46,854 bases of DNA from an uncultured Verrucomicrobia subdivision 3 bacterium (GTDB lineage Bacteria; Verrucomicrobiota; Verrucomicrobiia; Limisphaerales; UBA11358). The DNA is taken from contig CAJAQO010000316.1 in assembly GCA_903944085.1 (NCBI GenBank), positions 1-46,854 on the forward strand, given 5' to 3'. Under the pieces are notes generated by a model, which had not been told where the DNA came from, did no database searches, and saw only the letters and a program-made list of their open reading frames with translations. Shown here in pieces: positions 2,580 to 40,066 of this stretch. The stretch's first letter is position 1. The number at the start of each line of letters is the position of its first letter. Both the position numbers and the translations under genes were made by a program.

Positions 2580-3719
2580 TCACGCCTTGGCGGCGTGCAT
2601 CTCGGCGTGAACTTTCGCCACGCCTTTGACCAGTGCTTCCCAATCCGCCTCGGTGGTCTCCCAGCCGGCGCTGAAACGCACGGCGCGCACGGCGTGGATG
2701 GATTTATAACCCATCGCCGAGAGCACATGCGATGGCTCTTCTTTGCCGGTGGTGCAAGCGGAACCGGTGCTGACGGCGAAGCCGGCCTTGTCCAGGCGGA
2801 TGACCCATTGCAGCTTGCGGTCGCCTTCGGGCATGAGTGCGGAAACGGTGTTCCACAAACGCGGCACATTCGCGCCGAGGATGCTCGCGCCGGGCAAAGT
2901 GCGCAGCAATTCGCGCTCAAAATTATCGCGCCACACGCCGCGCAATAAATGCTGGCTGTGTGAAATCTGCTTTTCGCGCACGTCCAGCGCGGCCAGCATC
3001 GCCGCGATGATCGCGACGTTTTCCGTGCCTGCGCGCCGCCCGCCCTCCTGTTTGCCGCCGTGGAGCAGGGGAGTGATGGCTTTGCGATGCGGGATTTTTA
3101 AAAAGCCCACGCCGCGCGGGCCGCCGAATTTGTGCGCCGCGCCGCTGACGAAATCACATTCGCCCAATCCCTTCAACGGCATCTTGCCGATGAACTGCAC
3201 CGCGTCGGTGAAGAATGGAACCTCGTAAGCCTTGCAAATCGCGTGGATTTCGCGCCACGGCTGAATGACGCCGGTCTCGTTGTTCGCGGCCATCACGCCG
3301 ACGAGGCCGGGGCGTTTGTCGGCCATTTCGGAAGTGATCCAATCCATGTCCACCACGCCATCACGCGTGACGGGAATCCATTTCGCGCGCTTCCCAAAAT
3401 AATGTTTCGCCGAATCGTGGACGCAAGGATGCTCGATGGCGGAAATCCAGATCTCATCTTTTTCGCCGAGCGTTTTGGAGAAATGGTGCGTGACCATGTT
3501 GTTCGCCTCGGTCGCGCCGCTCGTCCAGATGATGTCCAGCGGATGACAGCCGAGAAACGCCGCGAGCTTTTCGCGCGCGTCGGCCAGCGCGATGCTCGCG
3601 CGCGTGCCGGCCTGATGCATGGACGACGGATTGCCGCCGATCTTCTCGGTGACGTTGAGCCAGGCTTCGCGCGCCTCGCGCATCACGGGCGCGGTGGCGT
3701 TGTAATCGAAGTAAATCAT
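2580..3719 (-). CDS. Cysteine desulfurase (NifS/IscS family)
   Basis: A 379-aa PLP-dependent class V aminotransferase-fold enzyme that removes sulfur from cysteine to give alanine and an enzyme persulfide, the sulfur source for Fe-S clusters and thio-cofactors. Visible motifs are the N-terminal Tyr-Phe-Asp-Tyr-Asn-Ala-Thr-Ala, Thr-Ser-Gly-Ala-Thr-Glu-Ala-Asn near 70, Asn-Asn-Glu-Thr-Gly near 145, the PLP lysine at about Lys197 (Ala-His-Lys-Phe-Gly-Gly-Pro) and the catalytic Cys322 in Ser-Ala-Cys-Thr-Thr-Gly, followed by Pro-Ser-His-Val-Leu. Length matches the family. No IscU, SufB or tRNA-thiolation gene lies beside it, so its specific client cannot be named. ATG at 3719 fits the family N-terminus exactly. 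Confidence 0.93.
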   Translation of the reverse strand: MIYFDYNATAPVMREAREAWLNVTEKIGGNPSSMHQAGTRASIALADAREKLAAFLGCHPLDIIWTSGATEANNMVTHHFSKTLGEKDEIWISAIEHPCVHDSAKHYFGKRAKWIPVTRDGVVDMDWITSEMADKRPGLVGVMAANNETGVIQPWREIHAICKAYEVPFFTDAVQFIGKMPLKGLGECDFVSGAAHKFGGPRGVGFLKIPHRKAITPLLHGGKQEGGRRAGTENVAIIAAMLAALDVREKQISHSQHLLRGVWRDNFERELLRTLPGASILGANVPRLWNTVSALMPEGDRKLQWVIRLDKAGFAVSTGSACTTGKEEPSHVLSAMGYKSIHAVRAVRFSAGWETTEADWEALVKGVAKVHAEMHAAKA

Positions 3720-4937: not shown

Positions 4938-6197
4938 TCAGCCCGCAGCGCCGGCGGTCACTGCGTTCAACACTTTGCGATGCGCGCTGGTGAAGGCGAG
5001 CGCCTGCATCTGGGCCGGAGTTTTCCAGATGCCTTTCCTTTCGGCGGAATCTTTTTTAAACCGCACCACAAACGCTGCGAGCGTGATGCGATAGCGGGTG
5101 ATGGAATGTTTGACGGTGCACAGCGGCTGGATTTTCGCCGCTCCGGTTTTAAACCGGCGGCGGAACATTGCCTCCAGGGCGGGCCGGGCTGCCGCGCATT
5201 CCTCGTTGGGAAATTCCCACAACTGCGCGTTCACCACGCCGGCCGGCCTTTGCTGCACCAGAAATTTTCCGTCCTGCTCAATAACAAACGCGATGAAGTG
5301 TCGCGCCGTGGCGGCTTCGCGCTTGCCAAGATTGGGCCAATCATCCACGCGACCTGCCTTGAACGCCACGCACAACTTTTTTACCGGGCAAACCAGACAC
5401 TGCGGGCTGCGCGGTGTGCATACCAGCGCGCCGAGTTCCATCAACGACTGATTAAGAAAGGAGCAGGAAACCTTCTCACGCAAAGGCGCGGAGACCGCAA
5501 AGGCCGGAAGTTTTCTGCTTTGCGAACTTTGCGCCTTTGCGCGAAAAACCAGTTCCGTCGCCAGTTGCCAAAGCCGGTGGTTCGTCGGTTTATCCTTGGG
5601 ATTTTCGGCGATGCCAAAAATGCGCGTCAGCACGCGGATGACATTGCCGTCCAGAATCGGCAGCGGCTGGTTGAAGGCGATGCTGCCAATCGCGCCGGCG
5701 GTGTAACGGCCAATGCCCGGCAAGGCTAAAATCCCGTCAAAATTTTCCGGAAATTGTCCGCCGTGTTTTTCCACGATGACCTGCGCGGCTTTCTGCAAAT
5801 TGCGGACGCGGGTGTAATAACCCAGACCTTCCCAGAGTTTGTGAATTTTTTCGGAAGGTGCTTGCGCGGCGGCTTCAATCGTCGGCAGTTCTTTCATCCA
5901 GCGATTCCAAAATGGAATCACCGTTTTCACCTGCGTCTGCTGTAGCATGATCTCGCTCACCCAAATCGCGTAAGGATCGCGCGTCCGCCGCCACGGCAGA
6001 TCGCGGGCATTCGCGGCGAACCAGTCCAGCAACGCGGCGACGAGTTTTGAATTTTTAGTTTTTATTTTTGAGTTTAAAAATTTGCCGAACGGCGAAATAC
6101 ACGAAATCCCCAAAAAGGAAATGAAGAAATCTGCGCCCGGAAAAATAAACCGTTTTCCGTTGCCGAATGGCTTCCTGCCGTGGCCGAAGGAATTCAT
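4938..6197 (-). CDS. mutY: A/G-specific adenine glycosylase MutY with in-frame repeat insertion
   Basis: MutY removes adenine mispaired with 8-oxoguanine or guanine. Seen are the catalytic Glu82 (Ser-Glu-Ile-Met-Leu-Gln-Gln-Thr), a helix-hairpin-helix ending Leu-Pro-Gly-Ile-Gly-Arg-Tyr-Thr-Ala (about 158-167), catalytic Asp183, and the [4Fe-4S] pattern Cys260-X6-Cys267-X2-Cys270-X5-Cys276. A C-terminal NUDIX-like 8-oxoG recognition domain follows. Two oddities. Residues ~219-245 are encoded by a palindromic repeat (5475-5545) inserted in frame between the catalytic Asp and the cluster. The first ~50 residues before the family's natural start (near Leu-Leu-Asp-Trp-Phe) have no family counterpart and look repeat-derived, so the start may be a nearby TTG. 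Confidence 0.9.
   Translation of the reverse strand: MNSFGHGRKPFGNGKRFIFPGADFFISFLGISCISPFGKFLNSKIKTKNSKLVAALLDWFAANARDLPWRRTRDPYAIWVSEIMLQQTQVKTVIPFWNRWMKELPTIEAAAQAPSEKIHKLWEGLGYYTRVRNLQKAAQVIVEKHGGQFPENFDGILALPGIGRYTAGAIGSIAFNQPLPILDGNVIRVLTRIFGIAENPKDKPTNHRLWQLATELVFRAKAQSSQSRKLPAFAVSAPLREKVSCSFLNQSLMELGALVCTPRSPQCLVCPVKKLCVAFKAGRVDDWPNLGKREAATARHFIAFVIEQDGKFLVQQRPAGVVNAQLWEFPNEECAAARPALEAMFRRRFKTGAAKIQPLCTVKHSITRYRITLAAFVVRFKKDSAERKGIWKTPAQMQALAFTSAHRKVLNAVTAGAAG
5475..5545. repeat. Palindromic interspersed repeat inside mutY
   Basis: Two nested inverted repeats: CGCAAAGGCGC (5479-5489) with GCGCCTTTGCG (5531-5541), both perfect, and inside them CGCAAAG (5496-5502) with CTTTGCG (5518-5524). 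I recognise this CGCAAAG/CTTTGCG pattern as a repeat scattered between genes in several bacterial phyla. A degenerate half copy is at 16143-16172 upstream of RNase HIII. Here it sits inside a coding frame without breaking it. Confidence 0.7.
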
Positions 6198-33181: not shown

Positions 33182-36100
33182 ATGAAAAAAAACATACTCC
33201 AGTTTAAAAAAATCGCCCTTTTGGCGTTGGCGCTGTCGTCCGGTTTAGTATCAGCCGACCAGACTTGGAAAGGCACCACCAGCACGCTCTGGGCCACGAC
33301 CGGCAATTGGAGCGGCAATGCGGTGCCCGGCACGGGTGATCTCGCCATCTACAGCCTTTCTTCCACGGCCAACTTGAGCAATTATCTGTCAGCCAGCTAT
33401 TCAATCAAAGGCATTCTCGTCAGCAACGTGACCACAGCCGCGGGCGTCGGCGGCGTCAGCCTCAACAGCACCAATTCCGGGGTCGCGCTCACCTTGGGGG
33501 CCGGCGGCATTGACATGACCAGCGCAGCCACCAACCTGACTATGACGCTGCCGGTGGTGCTCGGCGCGAATCAGAGTTGGATTGTCACCAACAGCAAGAC
33601 GTTGACGATTGCGAGCGGAGTTTCCGGCAGCGGCACGTTGCTCAAGAACACGCCCAATGCCTCGAGCACGGCATTCGGCCAGCTTTCGTTGAACGCCTCA
33701 AATACGTTTACCGGTATATTTACCATCAACGCCGGCCGGGTTGTCCTCGGCAATGCTTTTGCGCTGGGCAGTTCTAGCGCGGCGGCTATCGTCAATAGCG
33801 GCGGCCAGATCTATTGGACTGCGGCTTATACCATCGCCAAATCATTCCAAGTGAGCGGATCGGGGCTGGCCGGTGATGGCACCTTGCGGGAGTCCGGCAG
33901 CGTGGCCAGCACCATCAATGGCAATATCACGATGCTGGCGGACGCCATGCCCTTGAAGATGGACGGCGGCAGTTCTTTCACGCTAAACGGCAACATTACC
34001 GGCACCAACCGCAACCTTAATATCACGCTTGACGGTTCCACCAGCAGCACGATCAGCGGGGCGGTGAACATTGGCACGGGCGGGTTCACCAAGGCCAGCA
34101 CTTCCACGCTGATCCTCAACGGTGGCAGCAACGTGTGGTCCGGTGGCACTTTGATCAGCGGCGGCGGGTTGACGATTGGCAACGGTGGCGCGGGCAGCAT
34201 TGGCACCGGCACGATTACCAACAACGGCACGCTCACGTTTAACACCACCAGCCCGATCACCATCAACGACATTGTTTTGGGCACCGGTAGTTTGATTCAG
34301 AACGGCACCGGCGCGCTGACGCTGGGCAATGTTGATCCTTACACGGGCAACACCACCATTGGCGCGGGAGCGCGGCTGAACCTCGCGGCTGCCGCCGCGA
34401 TTCCAAACACCACGACGGCGACGCTCACCGTCAATGGCGTTTTGGATGTGACGGGTCCGGGTTCCATCACCATCGGCGGCACCCAGACGCTAACCGGTAG
34501 CGGCACGATTTTGGGCAACGTGAATACGGTCAGCGGTGCGACTTTGAACGGAAATCATTTGATCCAAGGCAACCTGACTTTAGCCAGCGGGGCCAATGTG
34601 TTGCCCGCGGGTGCCAACAGTTATGGCGTGCTGACTGTCAATGGCAACACCACGTTGAATGGGCCCACGATCAATTATGATCTGTCAAATGTCGCCACCG
34701 AATCGCCGGCGCTGAATGATGAAATCTATGTCAACGGCGCGCTCACGCTGAACGGCACCACGACGATTGTCCTTAATCCGCGCGCCGGCAATCTCGCTCC
34801 GGGAGCTTACATTTTGATCCGTTACAACGGCGTGCTTTCGGGCAGCGGCAATTTTGTTTTGGATCAGCCTTATGATGGGCTTGCGGTGGACACTTCGGTG
34901 CCGGGTGTCGTGCGTCTGGTCGTCGCGGCGGGCAGCCAGTTGACTTGGGTTGGCGACGGCAGTGTGAACACTTGGGATATTAATTCCACCGCCAACTGGA
35001 ACAACGGTGCTGGTGCGTCGGTTTTTCATCAGTATGACAGTGTTCTATTCAACGACAACGGCTCCGCTTCGCCCGCTGTCAATATCACGACGAATGTCAA
35101 GCCGGCGCTGATCATCGTCGGCGACGCTTCCGCGAACTATGTTTTCTCTGGCAACGGCAAGATCAGCGGTGCGGCCTCTATTCTCAAGACGAACACTAGC
35201 ACGTTGACCATCACGACCATCAGCAATGACTACAGTGGGCCGACGATTGTGCAGGCCGGCACGATTTCCATGCAGGACAACGGCACCTTCCCGGCGGCGG
35301 GCGGCATTGTCATTTCCAATGGGGCCACTTATCAGTTTGCCCCGCCCAGCAGCGTGAATATTGGTTCCCCGCTGGCATCGTCCATTACTGGCAGCGGCAC
35401 GCTTCAAATTGCCGGCAGCGGCATTGTGAATTTGGGCAACCAAGGCAACACCATCCCAAAAATCAATATTGCTCTCGCTCCCGGTGCGTTGATTGACGTT
35501 CAGAGCGGCACCTTGCGCAACGGCGGTTGGCAGGGCGGCTTCTGGACCGATGGACTTACTTGGACCAACATGGCGGACCTCCAGGTGGACGGGACTTTTG
35601 ATGAGTGGGACGGCAACACGGCCTATGTCAATCAGCTCAACGGCGGAGGCATTGTCGGCATCGGCATCAGCAGTGCCGCTTCTGGAACTCACACCATGAC
35701 CGTGGGAGTGAACAATGGCAGCGGCAGTTTTTACGGAACGGTGGAATGCAATATTTCCCCGGCCACCAACAGCACTCTGACCTTCAACAAAATCGGCACG
35801 GGCACGCAGTATATTGACCGCTTCACCCGCGGCAACGGTGGCACGGGCACGCCGACGCTCAATGTCAACGGCGGCATATTGCAGTTGGGCGGGAGCTCGG
35901 ATAATGTTGCCGCTGCTGCCACCGTGAACGCCGGCGGCATCCTACAACTCGCCAAATCCAGCACGGCTGGTGTGCACGCCCTCGGCGGCACCTTGACCAT
36001 CAACAGTAACGGCCTCTGCCAACTCACCGGCACCGGTGGCGACCAGATTTATTACGGGGCGTCGGTCGCGGTGAACGCGGGCGGCACGTTTGATCTCAAC

Positions 36101-39100
36101 GGCCAGAGCGAGGGAATCAACGGTCTGTCTGGCGCGGGCGTGGTTGAGAGCACCACTGGTTACGCTGTGCTGACCGTGGGATCGAATAACGCGAGCAGCA
36201 CTTTTGCCGGACTGCTGACGGATTATTCCGGCAACGCACTGGCCCTGACCAAGGTCGGCACTGGAACCCAGATCATGACTGGCACCAACACTTACACCGG
36301 CGGCACATTGGTAGGTTGGGGAACCTTGCAGTATGGCAACGCCATTACTAACTCGGTGCCCAGCGGCGATATCGGCTTGGTGAATCCCACCAACGCGGCC
36401 ACTGCCACTTTGAGTTTCGTGGTCGCCACCAATACGACCATCACTTACAACGGAAATATCACCAATGGCGCGGCTGGCGGCAACCTCTATGAAAACGGTT
36501 TCGGCGGAACGCTGATCTTGGGCGGCACCAACACCTTTCTGGGCAACGTCAACATCAATGCCGGGGCGCTTTGGATCCACAATAGTTATGGTCTGGGCTT
36601 GGGCGTCAAGACGGTTCAGTTGACTGCGGGCACGGCTGGTCAATGCACGCTTCACCTTGATGGCTCAGGTGGCAACATTGATCTGGGCCCCAACATTAGT
36701 TACAACACAAGCTATGTGACCGGCACCATTTACAATGAAGGTGGTGACAATACCATTGAGGGCACTTTCAATCTGACCAGCGGCGGCGGCGATACCTCCA
36801 TCTTCGCCAACGCCGGTTCGCTGACGCTCACGGGCTCGCTCATCCCCAACACTACCGGTCGCAATTTGGAGATCGGCGGCGCGGGCAATGGAACGAATAC
36901 TATTGGCGGCTATATCTCGGACGGCTCCGGTGCCAACACTCTCTCGGGTCTGCTCAAAATGGGCACCGGCAACTGGACCTTGCTCGGCAATAACACCTTC
37001 TCTGGCATTACCGCAGTCGAAGGCGGCACGCTGGTGCTTGGCGCCACCGGCACGCTGCCCTTAACCACCAGCATCAATGTTTACAGCAACGCCACGCTGG
37101 ATGTTTCCCTCGCCGCCGCCGCGGCAGGCGGCGTTTGGACCAACAACGGCAAATCTTTTCTCGGCAGCGGCACGGTGAATGGTAATGTGGCGCTCGCCAA
37201 CAATTCGTTGCTCCAGCCCGGCGGTTCTGGCTCGCGCGGCACGCTCACCTTCAACAACAACCTTATCTTGAGCCTCGGCGTCACGAATCAATTTGATTTG
37301 GGCACCGACCTGACCCCCGGCACCGGCTCCAACGATCTCGTGGTGGTGCATGGCAACCTTGATCCGCAAGGTTCCACCATCAGCATCAATCCGCTCCAGC
37401 CGTTGAGTCCCGGCACTTATCGGTTGTTCACTTATGCCGGCAGTAAGTTGAGTTCGTTCAATCCCACGCCACTGGTGAGCACGCCCTCGCGGTATATCTT
37501 GGCCGTGGACGAAACCACCCCGAATCAGATTAATCTTATCGTGAGCGGAACTGTCTCCAGCCTTACCTGGTATGGTTCTACCACGAATTGGGACATCAAC
37601 ACTACGGCCAACTGGAATCTTGGCGCGCAGAAATATGATAACTTCGACGCCGTCACCTTTGACGACACGTCAGTGACCAACTTGGTGAACATTGTTAGCC
37701 CAGTGCTGCCCACGGCGGTCGCGTTCAACAACTCGGCGACCAACTATACCATGCAAGGTGCCGGCAAAATCAGCGGTCCGGTTGGCATCTCGAAATCCGG
37801 CAGCGCCGTGCTGCGCATCAACAACGCCAATGACTTCATTGGCCCGGTCAATGTTTCCGGCGGCACTTTGATGGCGGGCAGCGCCACCGCGTTTGGGGCT
37901 ACGAACGGCGTTGTAACCGTTGCCAGCGGGGCCACCCTCGATGTGAACGCCCAGAATCTCGGTCTGAAACCTTTTGTCGTGGGCGGCACCGGCGTGGGCA
38001 ACAGCGGAGCGATCATCAATTCCTCGACTACCGCACAAGTCAACGCACTCAACACGGTCACTTTGACCGGTGACACGACTTTTGGCGGCGGCGGGCGCTG
38101 GGACGTTCGTGCCAACGGCGTTCCCTTGGCCAGTCTCTCCACCGGTGGCAACGCTTACAACCTTACCAAAATCAGCACCAACCAAGTTTCGCTGGTGAGC
38201 GTGGCCATTGACCCCGCACTGGCTAACATCAACGTGGTGGGCGGATTATTTGGTTTTGAAGCCAACAGCACCACCATGGGTAATCCGACCAATATCCTCA
38301 CGATTTGGACCAATGCTCAATTCCAACTGTGGGGACCGACCAATTTGGTCAACAAGCCCATGGTGCTGAATGGTGGAACCAACTGGTGCTTGAACAATGG
38401 CAGCGGCACCGCCACGGTAATCTCGCCCATAACTCTCGCAGCTTCGAGCATCATTGATGTCAGCGGCACTTCCATGACGCTCAATGGCCCGCTGGTCGAA
38501 ACCAACAGCCTTACTTCTATTACCAAAATTGGCAGCGGGTTGCTGGCGCTGGGCGCGACCAATACTTACTCCGGCGGAACCATTGTGACGGCCGGCACAT
38601 TGCAGCTTGGCAGCGGCGGCGTGGGCGGCAACATCGGCACGGGTGCGTTGACGATTAATAGTTCCACGCTGCAGTTCAATCGCAGTGATGATTTCACCTG
38701 GGCGACCGATATGTCCACCGGCACCAACAATACTTTGGTCAAGTTGAATACCGACACGATCACCATTGTCTCGACCAACATCAGTTCAGGTAACGATATG
38801 GTTAATGGCGGCACGCTGATCGTCAGCACCAATGGCTACCTCACTTCTGGCAACCAGTTTTGGATTGCTCAGAATGCCACGACCGGTGCTTGCATCATTA
38901 ATGGCGGCATTTTGATCAGCACCAACTGGGTGGCGGTTGGCCGCAACAACACCAACTCGCTGGGCACCATGATCATCAACAGCGGCTCCGCTCGCAAACT
39001 CGGCCCCGGCAACATCATCGTCGGTTCGCTCGGCGGCGCAGGCACGCTGACCATGAATGGCGGCATCTTTTACAACGACACCGCACTCTATCTCGGCGAA

Positions 39101-40066
39101 ACGGCCAACCAAGGCATCGGTCTGCTGAATCTCAATGGTGGTCTGATCCAAGCCTCCGTGCTTAGTCGCGCGCCTGCGGCTGGCAAAACTTCGATCGCTC
39201 GCTTTAACGGCGGCACGCTTCAGGCCAACACAAACCAAGCGAGCTTCATTGTCATTGATCAGGCGCTGATTCAAAACGGCGGTCTGGTGCTCGACGACGG
39301 CGGCTTCGTCATCACCAACAACCAGCCTTTGATCCCGGATGTCGGTTCGACCGGCGGGTTGACCAAGACTGGCGCTGGAACTTTGTATTTGAATTCAACC
39401 AATACTTACACCGGTCTCACGCTGGTCAACGGCGGCAAACTCGCGGGCAACATCAGCGTTGCGGGGGCGCTCACCGTCGGTGCCAGTGGCACACTTTCGC
39501 CCGGACCGGCCACCATCTTCCCGGTCGGCACGGTCACCGCCGCCGGCGCGGTCACGCTCAACGGCACGCTGGCCGTGGATGTTTCCAAAGACATCGGCGT
39601 CGGCGTCAGCGATCTGGTTGTCGGCAGCACGATCAATTACGGCGGCACGCTGGCGGTGAACCAGCTCGGGGTTCTGGCATATGCGGCCGGCGACTCATTT
39701 AAACTCTTTACTGCGGGAGCTTACACCGGTTCCTTCGCCTCAATCATTCCCGCCTCGCCGGGCACCGGAATTTCCTGGGACACCAGTTATCTGACTGTGG
39801 ACGGAACGCTCCGGGTCAAAGCTGGTGGCTTTCCCGCCACGCCCGCACCGATCACCGCCACCTACACCGGCAGCAACCTTTTATTGAGCTGGCCGGCAGC
39901 TTATCTGGGCCTGCTGCTTCAGGTGGAAACCAACAGTCTTAGCACCGGTTTGACGGTCAATGCCGGCGACTGGCACACCATTGCCGGTTCCGGTGCCAGC
40001 ACGAGCATTTCAATTCCGGTTAATCCAGCCAATCCCGCAGTTTATTTCCGGTTGGTGAAACCGTAG
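33182..40066 (+). CDS. Giant exported beta-strand-repeat protein (autotransporter-associated repeats)
   Basis: 2294 aa with an N-terminal signal peptide (about 1-25, ending Val-Ser-Ala). The protein is almost wholly Gly/Thr/Asn/Ser-rich beta-helix. Many units follow the autotransporter-associated repeat pattern, for example Leu-x-Leu-x-Gly-x-Asn-Thr-Tyr-Ser-Gly-Gly-Thr then Val-x-x-Gly-Thr-Leu-x-Leu-Gly. A distinct module with Thr-Trp-x-Gly, Trp-Asp-Ile-Asn and Asn-Trp-Asn occurs at about residues 28, 587 and 1460, dividing the protein into three large blocks. There is no C-terminal beta-barrel translocator. Instead the last ~70 residues form the module ending Tyr-Phe-Arg-Leu found in other exported proteins here. 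Probably a surface or matrix adhesin, secretion route unclear. The frame is intact over 6.9 kb. Confidence 0.9.
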   Translation: MKKNILQFKKIALLALALSSGLVSADQTWKGTTSTLWATTGNWSGNAVPGTGDLAIYSLSSTANLSNYLSASYSIKGILVSNVTTAAGVGGVSLNSTNSGVALTLGAGGIDMTSAATNLTMTLPVVLGANQSWIVTNSKTLTIASGVSGSGTLLKNTPNASSTAFGQLSLNASNTFTGIFTINAGRVVLGNAFALGSSSAAAIVNSGGQIYWTAAYTIAKSFQVSGSGLAGDGTLRESGSVASTINGNITMLADAMPLKMDGGSSFTLNGNITGTNRNLNITLDGSTSSTISGAVNIGTGGFTKASTSTLILNGGSNVWSGGTLISGGGLTIGNGGAGSIGTGTITNNGTLTFNTTSPITINDIVLGTGSLIQNGTGALTLGNVDPYTGNTTIGAGARLNLAAAAAIPNTTTATLTVNGVLDVTGPGSITIGGTQTLTGSGTILGNVNTVSGATLNGNHLIQGNLTLASGANVLPAGANSYGVLTVNGNTTLNGPTINYDLSNVATESPALNDEIYVNGALTLNGTTTIVLNPRAGNLAPGAYILIRYNGVLSGSGNFVLDQPYDGLAVDTSVPGVVRLVVAAGSQLTWVGDGSVNTWDINSTANWNNGAGASVFHQYDSVLFNDNGSASPAVNITTNVKPALIIVGDASANYVFSGNGKISGAASILKTNTSTLTITTISNDYSGPTIVQAGTISMQDNGTFPAAGGIVISNGATYQFAPPSSVNIGSPLASSITGSGTLQIAGSGIVNLGNQGNTIPKINIALAPGALIDVQSGTLRNGGWQGGFWTDGLTWTNMADLQVDGTFDEWDGNTAYVNQLNGGGIVGIGISSAASGTHTMTVGVNNGSGSFYGTVECNISPATNSTLTFNKIGTGTQYIDRFTRGNGGTGTPTLNVNGGILQLGGSSDNVAAAATVNAGGILQLAKSSTAGVHALGGTLTINSNGLCQLTGTGGDQIYYGASVAVNAGGTFDLNGQSEGINGLSGAGVVESTTGYAVLTVGSNNASSTFAGLLTDYSGNALALTKVGTGTQIMTGTNTYTGGTLVGWGTLQYGNAITNSVPSGDIGLVNPTNAATATLSFVVATNTTITYNGNITNGAAGGNLYENGFGGTLILGGTNTFLGNVNINAGALWIHNSYGLGLGVKTVQLTAGTAGQCTLHLDGSGGNIDLGPNISYNTSYVTGTIYNEGGDNTIEGTFNLTSGGGDTSIFANAGSLTLTGSLIPNTTGRNLEIGGAGNGTNTIGGYISDGSGANTLSGLLKMGTGNWTLLGNNTFSGITAVEGGTLVLGATGTLPLTTSINVYSNATLDVSLAAAAAGGVWTNNGKSFLGSGTVNGNVALANNSLLQPGGSGSRGTLTFNNNLILSLGVTNQFDLGTDLTPGTGSNDLVVVHGNLDPQGSTISINPLQPLSPGTYRLFTYAGSKLSSFNPTPLVSTPSRYILAVDETTPNQINLIVSGTVSSLTWYGSTTNWDINTTANWNLGAQKYDNFDAVTFDDTSVTNLVNIVSPVLPTAVAFNNSATNYTMQGAGKISGPVGISKSGSAVLRINNANDFIGPVNVSGGTLMAGSATAFGATNGVVTVASGATLDVNAQNLGLKPFVVGGTGVGNSGAIINSSTTAQVNALNTVTLTGDTTFGGGGRWDVRANGVPLASLSTGGNAYNLTKISTNQVSLVSVAIDPALANINVVGGLFGFEANSTTMGNPTNILTIWTNAQFQLWGPTNLVNKPMVLNGGTNWCLNNGSGTATVISPITLAASSIIDVSGTSMTLNGPLVETNSLTSITKIGSGLLALGATNTYSGGTIVTAGTLQLGSGGVGGNIGTGALTINSSTLQFNRSDDFTWATDMSTGTNNTLVKLNTDTITIVSTNISSGNDMVNGGTLIVSTNGYLTSGNQFWIAQNATTGACIINGGILISTNWVAVGRNNTNSLGTMIINSGSARKLGPGNIIVGSLGGAGTLTMNGGIFYNDTALYLGETANQGIGLLNLNGGLIQASVLSRAPAAGKTSIARFNGGTLQANTNQASFIVIDQALIQNGGLVLDDGGFVITNNQPLIPDVGSTGGLTKTGAGTLYLNSTNTYTGLTLVNGGKLAGNISVAGALTVGASGTLSPGPATIFPVGTVTAAGAVTLNGTLAVDVSKDIGVGVSDLVVGSTINYGGTLAVNQLGVLAYAAGDSFKLFTAGAYTGSFASIIPASPGTGISWDTSYLTVDGTLRVKAGGFPATPAPITATYTGSNLLLSWPAAYLGLLLQVETNSLSTGLTVNAGDWHTIAGSGASTSISIPVNPANPAVYFRLVKP

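Follow-up and report, generated by a model that had tools for sequence, protein, structure and literature searches.

The DNA analysed here, referred to below as the window, is a stretch of 46,854 nucleotides from an uncultured Verrucomicrobia subdivision 3 bacterium. The gene mutY, encoding the A/G-specific adenine glycosylase, lies at 4938..6197 on the minus strand as an ORF of 419 amino acids. Pfam recognises the HhH-GPD, HHH, endonuclease III Fe-S and NUDIX_4 domains in this ORF, and the features expected of a MutY are all present: HhH-GPD, the catalytic Asp, the 4Fe-4S cysteines and a NUDIX-like C-terminal domain. The Asp183 codon (5649..5651, minus strand) was identified by alignment to D144 of the Geobacillus enzyme and the Fe-S cluster cysteines C260-C276 (5370..5420, minus strand) from Pfam and the alignment, both positions being computed from the ORF. 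The true start of the protein is uncertain because the conserved part only begins near residue 45-50, and residues 1-45 are predicted with pLDDT below 50. This N-terminal part (window 6060-6197, ..NSKIKTKNSK) derives from an A/T-rich heptamer-like tract and is unconserved and predicted to be disordered. A cysteine desulfurase gene (2580-3719) adjoins mutY, and in many relatives it is found on the same contig near mutY. Elsewhere in the window, 33445-39661 holds a long series of diverged direct repeats (D2, D3, D6 and others), perhaps belonging to one big repetitive protein.

Inside mutY there is a palindromic element of the CGCAAAG type, which we call family A, at 5473..5547 (minus strand, approximately residues 217-242). 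It was detected as an inverted repeat (I15), by a covariance model (E 2.5e-18), which places it at 5468-5551, and by RNA folding. The two arms, 5473..5502 and 5518..5547, are unstranded, show 80% complementarity and are separated by a spacer of 15 nt. Family A is made up of three 8-9-nt CGCAAAG-type units and their inverted copies, and the arms look nested because each consists of three such units in tandem. When the minus strand of 5470-5550 was folded as RNA the energy was -42.2 kcal/mol, compared with -25.8 (sd 3.1) for shuffled sequences (z -5.3), and none of 200 shuffles folded as well. The palindrome that the initial annotation reported at 5475-5545 is thus borne out. That annotation also held that the insertion caused no stop or frameshift, and the 419-residue ORF indeed runs uninterrupted across it. 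The insert was said to lie between the catalytic Asp and the Fe-S cysteines; this placement holds, with D183 followed by residues ~217-242 and then by C260-C276, because D183 aligns to D144 and because D183 and the cysteines C260, C267, C270 and C276 are invariant in an alignment of 15 sequences, so that the flanking motifs are intact as claimed. The estimate of about 25 added residues agrees well with the ~23 extra residues seen against the solved structure of Geobacillus MutY, where the gap from 217 to 248 in the query faces 178 to 186.

An AlphaFold model based on the 15 sequences (mean pLDDT 79.5, pTM 0.72) is mostly confident outside the loop, and its best fold matches in the PDB are mouse MUTYH (7ef8, Z 37.5) and Geobacillus MutY (9bs2, Z 37.2). 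In the model the first half of the insert prolongs a helix, and residues 228-240, with pLDDT below 50, are flanked by confident helices at 203-226 and 245-259. The prediction is of a normal MutY fold with a disordered loop that carries the insert, and it favours the earlier suggestion that the enzyme may tolerate the palindrome as a surface loop. The variable inter-helix loop, taken as residues 218-248 (5454..5546, minus strand), is also the site of other repeats in relatives.

Family A is dispersed. A covariance model was built from 9 places, and at E <= 1 it matched at least 37 distinct places in the window's genome. This number is a lower bound, since scoring covered 150 of the 1305 candidates from the first look. 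The recurrence of the motif elsewhere in the genome, on which the initial annotation had staked its reading, is therefore confirmed, and at E <= 1e-4 matches are found in 37 of the 40 genomes of the genus. The consensus of 9 copies starts with TCTCACGC and ends with GCGTGAG. Leaving out C136:4826-4904 (E 0.63), we checked 36 of the 37 copies for open frames of 150 or more amino acids that span the element, and all 40 such ORFs were scanned with Pfam. Three copies interrupt a recognisable protein: that in MutY, one in an Hsp70 (residues 244-269, within a Pfam match at 7-368) and one in anthranilate synthase component I (residues 189-215, between domains at 18-158 and 221-474). Where other ORFs matched Pfam, the element precedes the first domain and most likely lies upstream of the real start. 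Family A is thus mostly found outside conserved coding sequence, in keeping with the earlier description of the palindrome as normally intergenic. The 36 copies have on average 4.17 of six frames open, compared with 3.79 (sd 0.15) in shuffles, of which 1 in 200 reached as high a value; a stop-poor design is therefore a small effect. In one place three copies are clustered within 700 bp by response-regulator and PD-(D/E)XK genes (L060-L065, G000:C21:19057-19739), and two copies on another contig (L062, G000:C40:28753-28938) have a similar neighbourhood.

MutY was detected in 58 of 59 relatives (E <= 0.001), several of these matches being paralogues or fragments; the named relatives are chiefly metagenome-assembled genomes (MAGs) of Verrucomicrobia subdivision 3 / Limisphaerales, several of which share their genus with the window's genome. 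For the comparison of the loop, 49 loci and the window gave 50 aligned rows, each represented by its best single ORF, and these rows exclude genomes with an incomplete MutY loop, such as G004, G015, G028, G029 and G035. The loop, bounded by ..ATELV and NQSLMELG, comprises 10-17 residues in many rows, and in others it reaches as many as 44. Inspection by eye assigned 17 of the 50 loops to one of five repeat families: A in two (the window and L019), B, with CGCGAAG units, in five (L010, L011, L012, L017, L022), C, in which GTAGCAGCCGACGTNAGGAGGCTC stands head to head, in four (L013, L028, L031, L053), D (GGTGGGGCGAG..) in five (L020, L021, L025, L032, L035) and E in one (L016). Six further loops, also judged by eye, contain A/T-rich heptamer-like tracts and the other 27 nothing that could be named. 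The frame is open through the loop in all 50 rows, and no locus has a MutY split there. The segment is thus absent from the MutY of most relatives, as was anticipated, and in distant MutY proteins, where its conservation would have spoken against an insertion, the loop is again short or of different sequence. Because unrelated palindromes fill the same loop in relatives, small dispersed repeats seem to have settled in this single loop repeatedly.

The other families are dispersed as well. Family C was found in 33 of 40 genomes, with 0 matches for a backward-pattern control. Family D was found in 11 of 12 chosen genomes, with up to 193 matches and at most 1 in the control, and of 10 genomes chosen for family B, 9 contained it; one of these 9 (G006) was no better than the control, which gave up to 3. 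Several MutY-loop copies are themselves among the places listed for G001, G003, G007, G010, G017, G024, G025, G026 and G031. Among the loci fetched, family E was seen twice in G009, once in mutY and once in uvrA, and also in uvrA of G029.

To follow the history of the loop we used a MutY tree built without the insert columns, 13 of whose 47 inner branches are starred. With family labels assigned by eye, the loop state must have changed at least 18 times on this tree, and 8 times when only presence is scored. Well-supported sisters differ: L012 carries halves of B and C and L013 carries C, while L031 carries C and L035 carries D. Two loops appear by eye to be mosaic, L012 with a B half followed by a C half and L035 with an A-like half followed by D. 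The nearest relatives and the empty loops are too diverged for an exact empty site or a target duplication to be legible.

An unbiased scan for palindromes (18-nt arms, at most 3 mismatches) detected 29 in the 50 MutY coding sequences, whereas codon shuffling, repeated three times, gave 0.33 on average. Fourteen of these, in 14 of the 50 rows, are at residues 226-234; 3 are at 146-147, 5 at 340-347 and 2 at 384, and of the others 2 lie close to the N-terminus and 3 at different positions. Three further MutY loops therefore bear palindromes, and in the AlphaFold model the sites at 146, 340 and 384 likewise fall between predicted structural elements. The loop near residue 146 has C-like palindromes in L016, L022 and L053, and in L018, L021 and L037 it holds GCGGAAA-type heptamer tracts (SGKRKAESGN). 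The palindromes in loops of the NUDIX-like domain belong to L031, L033, L035, L012 and L013 at ~340-347 and to L025 and L035 at ~384; L052 and L057 have another tract in common at these loops. With at most 2 mismatches allowed, a palindrome occurs in 8 of 30 loops of the genus (~82 nt each), whereas the flanks of the same loci contain 5 in 71,648 nt, after 3 of the 8 initially counted were discarded as runs of N. Per base the density in the flanks, which are a mixture of coding and non-coding sequence, is ~47 times below that in the loops.

It was of interest to compare MutY with other proteins. MutY, Hsp70 and TrpE were chosen because, in the window's genome, each of them contains a copy of family A. 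The insert sites of Hsp70 and anthranilate synthase I are occupied by A or by other repeats in relatives: the Hsp70 loop carries family A in the window's genome and in G018, G001 has a GTAG repeat there and a palindrome is absent from most of the 26 rows, and the TrpE linker has a tract of one of five kinds (by eye) in 17 of 30 rows, 5 of which pass the palindrome scan, with at least 9 state changes on a quick tree. Hsp70 yielded 10 palindromes and TrpE 8, each against a shuffle mean of 3.0, and 3 and 5 of them, respectively, are at the insert site. As controls, 30 sequences each of UvrA and cysteine desulfurase were scanned. UvrA showed no excess in number (7 palindromes against 6 in one shuffling round); 6 of the 7 are repeat-like and are confined to two sites, one at residues 271-275 and the other at residue 473. 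Cysteine desulfurase gave 7 against 2 in one codon-shuffling round; all 7 have 3 mismatches and lie in alignable coding sequence, and none of the repeat families was recognised in them. The excess is thus clear for MutY and weaker in the other proteins.

Taken together, these data make it very likely that a dispersed family A repeat entered the mutY loop and was kept in frame, and that other families did likewise in related species. We propose that a family A copy entered the coding sequence at the loop joining two helices, probably by insertion rather than by recombination between loops. The copy would then have persisted because its length kept the frame, the frame in use acquired no stop and the fold was untouched, a flexible surface loop merely becoming longer. 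The enzyme presumably remains active, and purifying selection on MutY may account for the fact that the survivors are in frame. Other families would have entered repeatedly in related species by the same process, so that this loop, together with a few like it in other proteins, is a recurrent site. Most likely, REP-like repeats are spread by some machinery and the survivors are kept where frame and fold allow.

A priori, the apparent inserts might be chance palindromes or products of misassembled metagenome bins, since MAGs are among the genomes compared and repeats are a known cause of misassembly. However, 29 palindromes were found where codon shuffles give 0.33, the site is filled in many separate assemblies with the neighbouring cysteine desulfurase in place, and the frame of the loop is never broken; we consider an artefact extremely improbable. 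Another possibility is that the inserts are kept for a function, tuning the activity of MutY or its mRNA. The strong hairpins on the coding strand (z -5.3 in the window, z -10.6 in L013) and the involvement of several repair and housekeeping genes (mutY, uvrA, Hsp70 and TrpE) are consistent with this idea, but the tree shows turnover of sequence, family and length at the site, and the loop is short in many relatives, which argues against a single conserved function, and we regard this explanation as highly improbable.

A less remote alternative concerns the origin of the pattern: the loop may be hot through preferential insertion, for instance of a repeat into an existing repeat, rather than through mere survival. 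The two mosaic-like loops, one of them that of L012, whose sister L013 carries C, would fit such a process, as would the high density of palindromes in the loop relative to its flanks. However, copies that are in frame may simply persist longer, because most deletions would disrupt the gene. The flanks that were counted include coding as well as non-coding sequence, and the mosaics, recognised by eye, number only two. Preferential insertion is thus possible but on the doubtful side. A more speculative idea, which we put forward tentatively, is that loops of conserved enzymes, MutY foremost, are deletion-proof refuges for unrelated palindromic repeats. An in-frame copy would be shielded because its imprecise removal would break a needed gene; such loops would therefore fill up, be overwritten by further repeats and perhaps reseed the genome.

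If this idea is correct, proteins of the genus would have loops made of whichever repeat was active in the lineage. To our knowledge, most known repeats that enter proteins are isolated cases. The MutY loop, in contrast, allows a comparison over dozens of species in which five or more repeat families serve as independent trials. This opens tests of the origin of new protein segments in non-coding DNA, of the tolerance of folds and of coding loops as a shelter for mobile DNA. Further, because MutY protects against G-to-T mutations, repeats within it could change mutation rates, an effect that is measurable.

Concerning the means of dispersal, 37 of the 40 genomes contain Y1_Tnp (RAYT) transposases, which are thus common in this genus. 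In 20 neighbourhoods of these genes that were fetched, an A or C motif was present in 3 and a B or D motif in 0, so that RAYT is at most a candidate mover of family A, one that these neighbourhoods do not support. At L212:571-1950 a Y1_Tnp gene is surrounded by three repeats of an ORF's 5' end, two of them preceded by A-like half copies. The half copies, on both sides of the Y1_Tnp gene, are part of a longer duplicated stretch that includes the start of a downstream ORF, rather than of a clear transposon.

A search of PMC full text for the CGCAAAG element strings, outside of which lie figures and most subscription papers, returned only unrelated work on human satellite DNA, and the portion of the literature covered by our search contained no report on palindromic insertion in MutY. 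The closest known case is that of Di Nocera et al. 2013 (PMC3733652), who described, in the parts of the article available to us, GTAG and CGTC REPs inside ORFs of many hosts, mostly adding 20-30 amino acids. Opitutus terrae, a member of the Verrucomicrobia, is there the richest in intragenic GTAG repeats; intragenic REPs are frequent in genes for DNA replication and repair (uvrA, recB, polA, DNA ligase), and recB of two Xanthomonas species has a REP at nearly the same site. Neither mutY nor a glycosylase appears in the main text of that article as available, and the same portion reports no single loop common to at least five families in one genus. A GTAG REP is defined by a GTAG tag beside a short stem-loop. 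Family C conforms to this, having the tag (GTAGCAGCCGACGTNAGGAGGCTC), and forms head-to-head pairs in mutY of L013, L031 and L053, whereas family A differs, GTAG and CGTC being absent from its ends in the consensus of 9 copies. The likeness to the Rickettsia palindromic elements (RPEs) pointed out at the outset holds as an analogy: as cited in the available part of PMC3733652, RPEs are in-frame palindromic repeats in proteins that are likely functional, and family A is similarly palindromic, dispersed and in frame within protein genes, in a different host phylum. MITEs, reported to affect proteins in Coxiella (PMC5896051, seen in part), are, like family A, small, non-coding and dispersed, with inverted repeats; of their hallmarks family A has the inverted repeat, a duplication is illegible in the diverged empty loops, and no parent transposon was found. 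From what is accessible of PMC3733652, then, REPs inside genes, many of them repair genes, are already known; what is new is a CGCAAAG family for which we found no description, and the reuse of one protein loop by several families.
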